A stretch of DNA of 64,000 nucleotides from Treponema sp. GTDB taxonomy: Bacteria > Spirochaetota > Spirochaetia > Treponematales > Breznakiellaceae. The position numbers were made by a program, and so were the translations under genes. Positions within the stretch are counted from its first letter, which is position 1; each line of letters starts with the position of its first letter. The stretch is from the NCBI GenBank assembly GCA_031266075.1, contig JAISBS010000094.1, positions 1 to 64,000 of the forward strand. The letters run 5' to 3'. The notes beneath the pieces were generated by a model. It ran no database searches. It saw only the letters and a list, made by a program, of their open reading frames with translations, and was not told the origin of the DNA. Below are positions 45,682 to 49,974 of this stretch, piece after piece.

Positions 45682-46860
45682 TTAATAAACTCCTCTTTCT
45701 ATAGTTCTGACGCGGATAATCCCCTCCACCTGTTCCAGCTGCTCTAACGCGGCGTGAGGGACTTTCTGCTCAATATCGATTATATTATAGGCGAATTCAT
45801 CCCGGTGGTGGTTAATCAGATCCAGGATATTTATGCCCGCCGATGCCAGTATGGTCGTGATCTGCCCCACCATGTTAGGGATGTTCCGGTTTACCACCAG
45901 CAGCCGGAAAGGGGCCTGCTGTTCCAAACGGCAGCGGGGGAAATTTACCGAATTCCGGACGGCCCCGGATTCCAGATATTCCATGAGTTGCCGAACCGCC
46001 ATGACCGCGCAGTTGTCCTCCGCTTCCGGGGTGGAAGCCCCCAAATGGGGGATGCAAATCACCTGGGGGCAGGCCAAAAGCTCGGCGGAGGGAAAATCGG
46101 TGATATAGGCGGAGAGTTTTTCCGCGCCCAGCGCGGTGATGATGTCCGCCTCGTTTACCAGTCCCCCCCTGGCCAGGTTGATGATCCGGGCGCCCTTCTT
46201 CATAAAGCGGAATTTTTCCCCATTCAGGAGCCCCCTGGTGGCGTCCCCCAGCGGGATATGGAGGCTAACATAGTCCGCTTTGGACAAAAGCCCCTCCAGC
46301 GTATCGGCCCGGATTACCTCCCGGGAGAGGTTCCACGCGGCGTCCACGGAAATAAAGGGATCGTAGCCCACTACCTCCATGTCCAGCGCGATGGCGGCGT
46401 TGGCTACCATGACCCCGATGGCCCCAAGGCCGATGATCCCCAGGGTTTTACCCCGGAGTTCCGGCCCTTCAAAACGGGATTTTTCCTTTTCCACCAGATC
46501 CGGCACTTCGTCGGCCTGGCCGGCAATGCTTTTCCCCCAGGAAATGCCCCCCAGAATGTCCCGGGAGGCGAGGAGCAGAGCGGCGATGACCAGTTCCTTG
46601 ACGGCGTTGGCGTTGCCGCCGGGGGTATTGAAAACCACCACTCCCCGGTCGCTGCATCGGGCTACGGGGATATTATTCACCCCCGCCCCGGCCCGGGCAA
46701 TGGCCAGCACCGATTCGGGAATCTCCAGGCCGTGGAGATCCGCGCTCCGGACCAGTATGGCGTCGGGGTGGGGAATCTCGCTGGCCACCTCGTAGCGATC
46801 CCGGGGGAACAGTTCCAGCCCCCGGGGTGAAATTTTATTCATCGTTTGTATGCGAAACAT
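45682..46860 (-). CDS. serA: D-3-phosphoglycerate dehydrogenase
   Basis: A 392-residue NAD-dependent enzyme, first step of serine synthesis. It has GLGAIGVMVANAA (Rossmann), the catalytic histidine in IPHLGASTPEAEDN, and a C-terminal ACT domain (NIPNMVGQITTILASAGINI) for serine feedback. GAGGA precedes ATG 46860. It is 9 nt after serC, under the Rex-dyad promoter. Serine feeds the cysteine synthase encoded at 6847-7767. Confidence 0.95.
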   Translation of the reverse strand: MFRIQTMNKISPRGLELFPRDRYEVASEIPHPDAILVRSADLHGLEIPESVLAIARAGAGVNNIPVARCSDRGVVVFNTPGGNANAVKELVIAALLLASRDILGGISWGKSIAGQADEVPDLVEKEKSRFEGPELRGKTLGIIGLGAIGVMVANAAIALDMEVVGYDPFISVDAAWNLSREVIRADTLEGLLSKADYVSLHIPLGDATRGLLNGEKFRFMKKGARIINLARGGLVNEADIITALGAEKLSAYITDFPSAELLACPQVICIPHLGASTPEAEDNCAVMAVRQLMEYLESGAVRNSVNFPRCRLEQQAPFRLLVVNRNIPNMVGQITTILASAGINILDLINHHRDEFAYNIIDIEQKVPHAALEQLEQVEGIIRVRTIERGVY

Positions 46861-46869
46861 AATCCGTCC

Positions 46870-47991
46870 TCATTTGCCGTTGGTTTTTTCAAATTGTTCC
46901 ATGAATTGAATCAGGGCCCGGACGCCCTCAATGGGCATGGCGTTGTAGATGCTGGCCCTCATGCCCCCTACCAGGCGGTGCCCCGCCAGATTCACCAGTC
47001 CCTGGGCCGCAGCCTCTTTGACAAACCGGGTTTCCAGTTCCTCCCGGCGGGCGGGATCGGCTTCGGTACAGACAAAGGGGATGTTCATCAGGCTCCGGCA
47101 GGATTTTTCCACCGGGGAACGGAACAGGCGCGACTGCTCCAGATACCGGTAGAAGAGGCCCGCTTTTTCCTGATTGAGCCGGGTGATGGCCGGAAGCCCC
47201 CCCAGGTTTTTGAGCCACTCCAGCACCAGCCCCATGATGTAGATGCCGTAGCAGGGGGGGGTGTTATACATGGAGCCTTCCCCGGCGTGGATGTCGTAGC
47301 GGAGCAGAGCCGGAACCCAGGAGGGGGCATGGCCGATGAGGTCTTCCCGGATGATCACCACCGTCAGCCCCGCGGGGCCGAGGTTTTTCTGGGCCCCCGC
47401 GTAGAGGACGCCGAATTTGGCGACCTCCAGCGGCTCCGAGAGGATACAACTGGAAATATCCGCCGCCAGCGGAACCGGGCCCGTATCGGGCAGTCCGGCC
47501 CATTTGGTTCCCACGATCGTATTGTTCAGGGTGATGTGGTAATAGGCGTCCCCCGGTTCCGGGGCCGGGGCGGCGGGGATGTAGGTGTAGGCCCGGTCTT
47601 TTGAGCTTGCCGGGACAGAGACATCCACAAATTTCGCGGCCTCGGCGGCGGCTTTTTTCGCCCAGATCCCGGTTTCGATATAGACGGCCTTTTTTCCCGG
47701 AGCCTCCGGGCCGGCCTGTTCCCCCGATGCCAGGTTCAGGGGGATCATGGAGAACTGGAGGGACGCGCCCCCCTGGAGAAACAGAACCCGGTAATTGGGA
47801 GGAATCCCCATGAGTTCCCGGAGAAGGGCTTCGGCCCCTTCGATGATGGGCTTAAAATCCTTTGACCGGTGGCTCATTTCCATCACCGACTGGCCGGCGC
47901 CGTTGGCATCGGTCATTTCCGCCGCGGCCCGTTCCAGTACCGGCAGGGGCAGGACCGAGGGCCCCGGAGAAAAGTTATACACGCGCTTCAT
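46870..47991 (-). CDS. serC: Phosphoserine aminotransferase
   Basis: A 373-residue PLP enzyme, second step of serine synthesis. It has the N-terminal NFSPGPSVLP, FLQGGASLQFSMIPLNL, the lysine motif VLYAGAQKNLGPAGLTVVII and the C-terminal RASIYNAMPIEGVRALIQFM. The ATG overlaps the rex stop by 4 nt (ATGA). A serB phosphatase is not in the window. Confidence 0.95.
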   Translation of the reverse strand: MKRVYNFSPGPSVLPLPVLERAAAEMTDANGAGQSVMEMSHRSKDFKPIIEGAEALLRELMGIPPNYRVLFLQGGASLQFSMIPLNLASGEQAGPEAPGKKAVYIETGIWAKKAAAEAAKFVDVSVPASSKDRAYTYIPAAPAPEPGDAYYHITLNNTIVGTKWAGLPDTGPVPLAADISSCILSEPLEVAKFGVLYAGAQKNLGPAGLTVVIIREDLIGHAPSWVPALLRYDIHAGEGSMYNTPPCYGIYIMGLVLEWLKNLGGLPAITRLNQEKAGLFYRYLEQSRLFRSPVEKSCRSLMNIPFVCTEADPARREELETRFVKEAAAQGLVNLAGHRLVGGMRASIYNAMPIEGVRALIQFMEQFEKTNGK

Positions 47992-48629
47992 TCAATACTC
48001 CTTATGCATATTGCCAATTCCCGCAATTCATCCGCCACATAGACATTCCTGACCGCCATGTCCGGCGGCAGTTTCAAAACTACCGGGGCAAAATTTACGA
48101 TGCCCCGGATGCCGGCGGCGGCCAGTTTTTCCGCCGCCCCCTGCGCCGCCTCCGGGGGGACGCAGAGGAGGGCCATTTCTATGGAAAAGCGACGGATCAC
48201 TTCTCCCATTTTATAGGCCGGGTACAGGGGGGCCGGGGACTTCAAAATCTCCACCCGGTTCACATTGGTGTCGAACCCCGCGGCCAGTTCGAATTCCTCC
48301 TCCCCCGAGGGGCCGAAGTCAAAAGACTGGTCGTTCAGATAGGCCGATCCCAGCCGGCCCAGCCCCACGACACAAAACCGGCGCCGCCGGTCCAGCCCCA
48401 GGGCCTTTTTGATCGCCGGGATCAGGGCTGCCGGGGCATAGCCGTTACTGCTCCCCACCGCATGCCCGCCGTCCCCCAGGAAGGAAATATCCTTTCGGAT
48501 GGTATGGCTCGGCCAGCCCGTCATCTGTTCCACCTGGGCGGAAGTTACCGGGGCCTCGCCGCTTTTTTCAAGGATCCGCATAAGCCGCAAAAGCCGCTCC
48601 CGTGCCGGCCCGGAGATACTATTCACCAT
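47988..48629 (-). CDS. rex: Redox-sensing transcriptional repressor Rex
   Basis: A 213-residue NADH/NAD+ sensor. The winged-helix part contains WPSHTIRKDISFLG and the Rossmann part FCVVGLGRLGSAYL, then AAGFDTNVNRVE and the C-terminal VYVADELRELAI. High NADH releases Rex from DNA. The start was placed at ATG 48629 (ATG 48632 adjacent, AGAGG upstream); the longer frame to 48674 runs into a tandem repeat. A perfect Rex-type operator (48852-48869) covers its own predicted start point, so it should repress itself and the serC-serA genes behind it. Confidence 0.93.
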   Translation of the reverse strand: MVNSISGPARERLLRLMRILEKSGEAPVTSAQVEQMTGWPSHTIRKDISFLGDGGHAVGSSNGYAPAALIPAIKKALGLDRRRRFCVVGLGRLGSAYLNDQSFDFGPSGEEEFELAAGFDTNVNRVEILKSPAPLYPAYKMGEVIRRFSIEMALLCVPPEAAQGAAEKLAAAGIRGIVNFAPVVLKLPPDMAVRNVYVADELRELAICIRSIE

Positions 48630-48726
48630 CATGGCCTCTATTGGGCCTAGGCCGTGCCGCCTTTTTCCACACACCCGCCTGCGCGGGATGAAATCGGGCC
48701 GGCCCGAAGATGTTATTCACCATCAT
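48619..48726 (-). CDS. Upstream ORF 2 in the rex leader (35 aa, speculative)
   Basis: Created by the tandem repeat. It reads from ATG 48726 to TAG 48619 and begins MMVNNIFGPARF, copying the first residues of Rex (MMVNSISGPAR). Its end overlaps the rex start by 14 nt in another frame. It has no strong Shine-Dalgarno. Translation is unproven. Confidence 0.3.
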   Translation of the reverse strand: MMVNNIFGPARFHPAQAGVWKKAARPRPNRGHDGE

Positions 48727-48814
48727 GGCTTCTATTGGGCCTAGGCCGTGCTGCCTTTTTCCACATACCCGCCTGCGCGGGATGAAATCGGGCCGGCCCG
48801 GGTATACTATTCAT
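48713..48814 (-). CDS. Upstream ORF 1 in the rex leader (33 aa, speculative)
   Basis: From ATG 48814 to TAA 48713, in the same repeat context. It encodes a peptide very like uORF 2 (FHPAQAGMWKKAARPRPNR core) and overlaps the uORF 2 start by 14 nt. It may be chance coding created by duplication. Confidence 0.3.
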   Translation of the reverse strand: MNSIPGPARFHPAQAGMWKKAARPRPNRSHDGE

Positions 48815-48851
48815 AATCGTAGTCTCTTGCGGCGCACATTACAACCCCTTG

Positions 48852-48900
48852 CTGTGAAATATTTCACAGTGACTATGACAAAAAGTTAAATTTGTGTCAA
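48852..48900 (-). promoter_or_regulatory. rex operon promoter with Rex operator
   Basis: Minus strand: TTGACA (48900-48895), 17-bp spacer, CATAGT (48877-48872), predicted start near 48865. The perfect 18-bp palindrome CTGTGAAAT-ATTTCACAG (48852-48869) lies over the start and matches the known Rex consensus TTGTGAA-N4-TTCACAA in all but the outermost bases. Confidence 0.85.
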
Positions 48901-48948: not shown

Positions 48949-48977
48949 TTGCCATCGGCCCCGCCATCTTCTATGAT
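48949..48977 (+). promoter_or_regulatory. hprK promoter (leaderless candidate)
   Basis: TTGCCA (48949-48954), 17-bp spacer, TATGAT (48972-48977). ATG 48985 lies 8 nt past the -10. The apparent ORF start at 48949 is the -35 itself. Confidence 0.6.
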
Positions 48978-48984
48978 AATGTTT

Positions 48985-49974
48985 ATGGCCGAGCGGCGTT
49001 TTACGGTTTTGGATCTCATTGACATTGATCTCAAAGAACATAACAGCCTGAACCTGCACTGTATCGGGGGGCGGAAAGGCCTGACCCAGGAAATCAATAT
49101 TCCCGACCTGAACAGGCCGGGCCTGGCCCTGGCGGGGTTCTACGAGTCCTTCGCCCATCAACGGATACAGCTTTTTGGCCGGGGGGAATTCGCCTACCTC
49201 CGCAAGCTGGAAAAAGAGGGCGAGGACGCCACGATCCGGCGGATGTTCAGCTATTCCATCCCCTGCTGTATTTTTACCCATAACCTGAGCCCTCACCGGG
49301 ATTTTTTCGAGGCCGCGGAAAAGGCCCAGTGCCCCATCCTCCAGACCGATCTGGGAAGCGCGGAATTTTCCGCCCGGATCACGCGGATTCTGACGGAGAT
49401 TTTTGCACCCCGGCAGAGCATCCACGGGGTGCTGGTGGAAGTCTACGGTCTGGGGATTTTGATTCTGGGCGATTCGGGAGTGGGGAAAAGCGAAACCGCC
49501 CTGGAACTGATCAAGCAGGGCCACCGGCTGGTGGCGGACGATGTGGTGGATATTCACTGTGTCAACGGCAACATTCTTATGGGCGCCGGGGCGAACAAGA
49601 TCATCGGCCACCACATGGAAATCCGGGGGCTGGGAATCATCAACGTTACCCACCTGTTCGGCGTTGGGGCGATCCGGGACCGGAAGCAGATTCAACTGGT
49701 AGTGGTGCTGGAAGAATGGGATTCCGCCAAAACCTACGACCGGCTGGGGACGGAGGAAAAGGTGATGGAATTTCTGGGGGTCAGCATCCCCAAGCTGGAG
49801 ATTCCCGTAAAGCCGGGGCGGAACATTCCCACCATCATCGAGACCGCGGCGATGAACGAGCGGCTGAAAAAAATGGGCTACAACGCCGCCAGGGAATTTA
49901 ATCAAAATATACTCAAATGGATCGAAAGCGACGCCGCCCGATCGGTGTACTTCGGCAGCGATGATATTATTTAG
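48985..49974 (+). CDS. hprK: HPr kinase/phosphorylase
   Basis: A 329-residue enzyme that phosphorylates and dephosphorylates HPr on Ser46. It has the P-loop GDSGVGKS (162-169), the catalytic histidine in SIHGVLVEVYG (H147), ADDVVDIHC and the signature EIRGLGIINVTHLFGVGAIRD in two parts. ATG 48985 suits the promoter; ATG 48979 is in frame but overlaps it. It is followed by HPr after 15 nt. In spirochaetes this pair commonly persists without full PTS transport. Confidence 0.95.
   Translation: MAERRFTVLDLIDIDLKEHNSLNLHCIGGRKGLTQEINIPDLNRPGLALAGFYESFAHQRIQLFGRGEFAYLRKLEKEGEDATIRRMFSYSIPCCIFTHNLSPHRDFFEAAEKAQCPILQTDLGSAEFSARITRILTEIFAPRQSIHGVLVEVYGLGILILGDSGVGKSETALELIKQGHRLVADDVVDIHCVNGNILMGAGANKIIGHHMEIRGLGIINVTHLFGVGAIRDRKQIQLVVVLEEWDSAKTYDRLGTEEKVMEFLGVSIPKLEIPVKPGRNIPTIIETAAMNERLKKMGYNAAREFNQNILKWIESDAARSVYFGSDDII

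Follow-up and report, generated by a model that had tools for sequence, protein, structure and literature searches.

Analysis of the rex leader in a Treponema genome indicates that two head-to-tail copies of a mobile hairpin element of termite-gut Treponema were very probably inserted in rex. The window, by which we mean the whole 64,000-nt stretch of DNA analysed, comes from a genome of the family Breznakiellaceae (PMC13067680) designated G000 in our genome set. Among relatives that carry a name, the closest is 'Treponema sp. isolate Gx481_bin158', one contig of which encodes a Rex with 87% identity.

The rex locus and its tandem leader

The rex product was assigned as Rex by a curated model (NCBIfam NF003995, 127.9 bits, cutoff 126) and by its best PDB matches, which are Rex proteins (E 1.5e-26). 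The gene shares an ATGA overlap with serC, and a serA-like gene follows serC. Most relatives preserve the order rex then serC, which ties serine synthesis to NADH sensing. In the window, rex, serC and the serA-like gene form a compact run behind the Rex operator (45682-48632). A second, distant Rex-like gene (32% identity) is located at G000:C90:43591-44118 and is also present in many relatives. The operator core TGTGAAATATTTCACA is a perfect palindrome (48853-48868) directly behind the TTGACA-17-CATAGT promoter, and only 0.06 operator-type sites with three or fewer mismatches are expected by chance in the window. The placement of this operator over the predicted transcription start, first described in a sequence-only reading of the window, was borne out, and the same arrangement occurs in relatives. 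The features of the locus are as follows.

48949..49974, plus strand: hprK, divergent neighbour of rex
48872..48900, minus strand: sigma-70-type promoter of rex, TTGACA-17-CATAGT, in the same register in 13 relatives
48852..48869, minus strand: Rex operator CTGTGAAATATTTCACAG over the predicted transcription start
48789..48827, minus strand: native rex start region (ribosome-binding site, ATG 48814, codons MNSIPGPAR); coincides with the partial third copy of the repeat and agrees with the N-terminus of Rex in relatives
48713..48814, minus strand: uORF1, 33 aa, in which reading from the native rex start passes out of frame into the element
48699..48789, minus strand: element copy A, the upstream full unit (54.0 bits with covariance model R2)
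48768..48781, minus strand: hairpin CCCGC-GCAG-GCGGG of copy A
48619..48726, minus strand: uORF2, 35 aa
48605..48695, minus strand: element copy B, the downstream full unit, with the rex frame open through it (54.9 bits with R2)
48674..48687, minus strand: hairpin CCCGC-GCAG-GCGGG of copy B
47988..48632, minus strand: rex; likely start at the tandem ATG 48632/48629 with AGAGG upstream, alternatively at GTG 48674
46870..47991, minus strand: serC

TRF detected a 94-bp period with 2.2 copies at 48604-48813 (score 357), by far the strongest of the ten arrays in the window. The two full copies (48601-48694 and 48695-48788) differ at 7 of 94 sites (93% identity) and the partial third copy (48789-48827) is 79% identical over 39 nt, which confirms the two full units and partial third unit originally reported. 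The two upstream open reading frames (uORFs) likewise have the coordinates and lengths first assigned to them (48814-48713, 33 aa, and 48726-48619, 35 aa). Each was said to overlap the next start by 14 nt. This is correct for uORF1 and the start of uORF2; for uORF2 and rex it is correct with respect to the first tandem ATG (48632), but the overlap is 11 nt for 48629, the start that had been named. Followed upstream, the rex frame remains open across the last copy, in the HGVGP frame (..IPRRRVCGKRRHGLGPIEAMMVNSIS..), and present rex begins MMVNSISGPARERLL.

The ancestral start of rex

Rex leaders were compared in about 20 other genera. Under a strict pattern, promoter hexamers and a TGTGA-N6-CACA operator were found in the same register in the 13 relatives listed above. 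The distance from the operator to the first aligned Rex residues is 27 to 94 nt in relatives (one locus, aligned only from residue 59 onward, is excluded) versus 239 nt in the window. Rex proteins of relatives commonly begin with forms of IPxPA(K/R)ERLL, and uORF1, which opens with MNSIPGPAR, is spaced from the operator as expected. When the 188 bp of the two units were removed in silico, the Rex N-terminus of the family was recovered (MNSIPGPARERLL), the empty site reading MNSIPGPARERLLRL. On this sequence comparison the uORF1 ATG (48814) is the ancestral rex start, very probably cut off by element insertion near codon 8-9.

The persistence of the repeat and of its peptide frame in related leaders had been proposed as a check on the original reading. 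The uORFs are absent from all relatives of other genera with an assembled rex leader, and the operator-to-start distance is short in all of these relatives. The only same-genus genome (G001) has an assembly gap exactly at the rex leader, with one contig ending 30 nt before the hprK match and the other beginning exactly at GGGCCGGC, rex codon 7. Since element copies often sit at contig ends, G001 may carry the element at rex. A partial element copy, cut by a contig end, was observed upstream of the rex operator in a genome of another genus (G019, L043:1-74).

A dispersed hairpin-forming element

Comparison with relatives identifies each 94-bp unit as a copy of a dispersed, hairpin-forming element of about 97 nt. 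Searches of the own genome and of relatives with the leader DNA gave weak short matches, some of which were the first sign of the element. With the 94-bp unit as DNA query, weak, short matches came from 14 further family genomes, including four from a single genome; except for a few chance matches in coding sequence, the matched places share a hairpin followed by GGCRSCAcGGCSTAGGCCCAATAAA. Matches within coding sequence in G002 (26 bp, L020) and at L078/L096 and L098 were taken as chance. The pattern RWWAAGGCRSCAVGGCSTAGG, with one mismatch allowed, occurs 18 times in G093, 13 times in G137 and 5 times in G124, and the reversed control pattern gave no match in these three genomes.

A first covariance model (R1) was built from the element and then rebuilt without the window rows to avoid circularity (R2). 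Both window copies were recovered by R2 with E about 1e-18, and the next best match in the window scored 8 bits. The fit of the 94-bp unit to the family is only moderate in its 3' third, which derives from rex. At E<=0.01, R1 detected copies in 124 of the 200 termite-gut "Treponema" genomes that represent the window's family. The R1 scan scored 20 candidates per genome and many genomes came near that number, so the copy counts are minima: at E<=0.01 there are at least 15 in the own genome and at least 8 in G001. With more candidates scored, 33 and 26 matches, respectively, were found at E<=1. The single-contig genome G168 holds 23 copies. In 23 genomes of sister families only five borderline matches were found (best E 0.0017), and the Rfam search of the element and leader gave no family match. 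Integron attC sites were considered and rejected, as a consistent core-site pair was not seen by eye.

The 5' hairpin stem varies among copies yet stays paired (90.5% of cells). Covariation is strong, with 26 cells changed on both sides versus 5.5 in shuffles; none of 500 shuffles was as high, a count that is no formal probability because the copies are related. Slid controls were far lower, and the first alignment gave a similar outcome. The window copies keep the stem core and not the outer pair. A second, longer-range helix is likely, with pairings such as GGCCC/GGGCC, GGGGCC/GGCCCC and GCGCAC/GTGCGC; in a permutation test 0 of 5000 reached the observed value, with a modest mean difference among related copies.

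Element copies in spacers, tandem arrays and conserved genes

Element copies avoid long open reading frames: 35% are covered by a frame of at least 200 aa versus 81% of control positions at the same loci. One copy in the own genome (L166, G000:C93:41639-41731) begins where an upstream reading frame ends (..RETRVVEYAR*), apparently providing that frame with its stop codon. Tandem arrays with a period of about 100 bp were found in G208, G124, G206, G127 (four units) and G168 (five units, 102 bp apart). Since such arrays recur in other genomes, the 94-bp tandem of the window is typical of the element family. The possibility that the element is simply a coding sequence was rejected, as stop-free frames over all copies (sense 11-46%, antisense 46-62%, shuffled expectation 32%) are not clearly enriched.

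Several copies keep the reading frame of the conserved genes they occupy, and at dnaE and hisA-hisI relatives provide empty sites. The dnaE gene of the own genome carries the element in frame (L168, G000:C20:2755-2854; 38.2 bits with R2), reading PREAREPVSASSQAMPRGESPGKSGGTEFMSQG. At 162 bp this segment exceeds its 63-bp counterpart in the same-genus sister by 99 bp, or 33 codons. The site is a short loop in nearly all other relatives, the exceptions being an unrelated-looking low-complexity stretch in G017 and a moderate one in G015. The HisA-HisI linker of G207 carries the element as DNSTRTGERVDEQMQHGVGQEKAAVTIKFEGP; the linker is short in most congeners of G207 and has other extra residues in a few. 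At this same site, the hisA-hisI linker of G201 (L243) holds a different in-frame palindrome pair, GGAGTTTGCGAAGCAAACTCC and GATGAAAATCCGCAGGGATGCGGATTTTCATC, which suggests further families of protein-coding palindromes. In ileS the element sits between two matched stretches of known IleRS structures; residues 206-258 of a DegT-type aminotransferase separate two stretches for which the spacing in ArnB is 10 residues. An antisense copy interrupts the C-terminal domain match (Pfam) of fmt, and another occurs in a UvrD-like helicase of G001. Sense-direction translation of the element yields related peptides repeatedly (TRTGERVDEQMQHGVGQEKAAVT, TRNIERVDEQTPHGVGPLNAVVT and others). The rex copies are not an in-frame insertion of this kind: their 188 bp shift the frame from the native ATG, and only the last copy is open into rex. 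Neither the ends of the element nor its target duplications are sharply defined, with no clear target duplication at dnaE and 22-39 bp duplicated at rex. The element is probably non-autonomous and mobile.

Origin of the rex leader

To account for the present leader, we propose that the element entered rex at about codon 8-9. The unit would then have taken in duplicated rex start sequence, 22 bp or more (TGAATAGTAT..CGGGCCGGC), or 39 bp if weaker upstream similarity counts, before being doubled into two full copies. A rex duplication of 22-39 bp is longer than usual target duplications, and another route, such as slippage or unequal recombination, must therefore contribute. The 188 bp are not divisible by 3, which puts the native ATG (48814) out of frame, where it reads uORF1; the next copy of the start reads uORF2. 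The gene would have been rescued by the last start copy, at ATG 48632/48629 with AGAGG just upstream. This AGAGG-ATG ATG stretch may come from the element or be a modified form of the native sequence.

The uORFs look like by-products of these events, and a regulatory role seems to be lacking. The sequence-only reading had advanced a selected reinitiation relay, in which the uORFs tune Rex synthesis downstream of NADH-controlled transcription, and had allowed that they might equally be passive products of duplication. The 14-nt overlap with the next start would permit translational coupling, and a plausible ribosome-binding site precedes each start. The codons that differ between uORF1 and uORF2 comprise four nonsynonymous, two synonymous and one stop-to-stop difference, however, so that the amino acid changes at four of the six sense codons that differ, a pattern giving no hint of selection on the peptide. 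Together with the absence of the uORFs from relatives of other genera, and with the match of the array to a dispersed family showing the same tandem habit at unrelated sites, this makes the relay improbable. The by-product reading fitted best, although its cause appears to be insertion of a dispersed palindromic element and not plain local duplication.

The element could instead be a structured RNA regulator of rex, an attenuator or something resembling a riboswitch, given that its hairpin covaries and that the leader folds more stably than shuffles (z = -2.37). The occurrence of copies at unrelated loci and within coding genes in both orientations, together with the lack of an Rfam match, makes this very unlikely. 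The predicted accessibility of the three starts with the element (0.52-0.68) is moreover similar to that of the native start in the in-silico empty site (0.62). Plain local tandem duplication of the rex leader, with no mobile element involved, would explain why rex start sequence is found in every copy of the unit, and the claim that the repeat duplicates part of the rex start is indeed supported. The interior of the unit, however, is not rex sequence and belongs to the family found in the 124 genomes, so that the R2 matches contradict this explanation and leave it hardly any probability. An assembly artefact, for which the fragmented, 70%-complete genome and the frequent element copies at contig ends might speak, is just as implausible, as the units differ from one another, the array lies inside a 95.6-kb contig and similar arrays occur in the single-contig genome G168.

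Comparison with known systems

Bacterial control by uORFs and leader peptides resembles the rex leader in its short upstream frames with overlapping start and stop; the rex uORFs differ in not being conserved and in showing no signs of peptide selection. Palindromes of the REP or GTAG-tagged type, associated with RAYTs (PMC3733652), are likewise dispersed, mostly intergenic and sometimes genic, and the element core often contains GTAG. REPs are 20-40 bp long with the tag at one end, whereas the Treponema element is about 97 nt long with GTAG in the middle (CTAG in the window copies) and is thus not a 20-40 bp palindrome with a terminal GTAG. MITEs (ERIC, Correia, BOX and others; PMC10969869) are similarly short, non-coding, probably mobilised in trans and occasionally fused in frame, but the clear terminal inverted repeats or short target duplications of MITEs were not recognised in the Treponema element. 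Treponema is mentioned neither in a survey of GTAG and CGTC repeats (PMC3733652) nor in a 2025 survey of REPs covering other spirochaetes (PMC12306157). Among open-licence papers we found no description of this repeat family or of RPE-like behaviour in spirochaetes.

The closest likeness is to the Rickettsia palindromic elements (RPEs; Ogata et al. 2000, 2002), in-frame palindromic repeats summarised in PMC10969869. As described, RPEs too are short (about 100-150 bp), hairpin-forming repeats with many copies, located between genes and in frame in unrelated conserved genes, where they add a recurring peptide to host proteins. The Treponema element differs in belonging to another phylum, in also forming tandem arrays of about 100 bp, and in breaking the frame at rex, where a start is re-supplied. 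By this described behaviour the Treponema element appears to work like RPEs, and it is filed outside the RPE families. An RPE-like process in other prokaryotes was considered only "conceivable" in a 2024 review (PMC10969869).

It seems reasonably likely that termite-gut spirochaetes have their own, independently evolved protein-invading palindromes, which occupy spacers, tandem arrays and, in frame, essential genes (dnaE, ileS, his genes), and which at rex, having cut the original start off, brought in a replacement ribosome-binding site and start codon. Seeming uORFs and tandem leaders in these genomes may, as a caution, be element debris. Empty sites in close relatives make it testable over hundreds of genomes how such elements travel, why tolerant loops are where they settle, and whether new protein sequence or gene starts arise from them. 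Mobile palindromes within genes have been a striking feature of Rickettsia, and the Treponema element would provide a second, abundant case in a different phylum.
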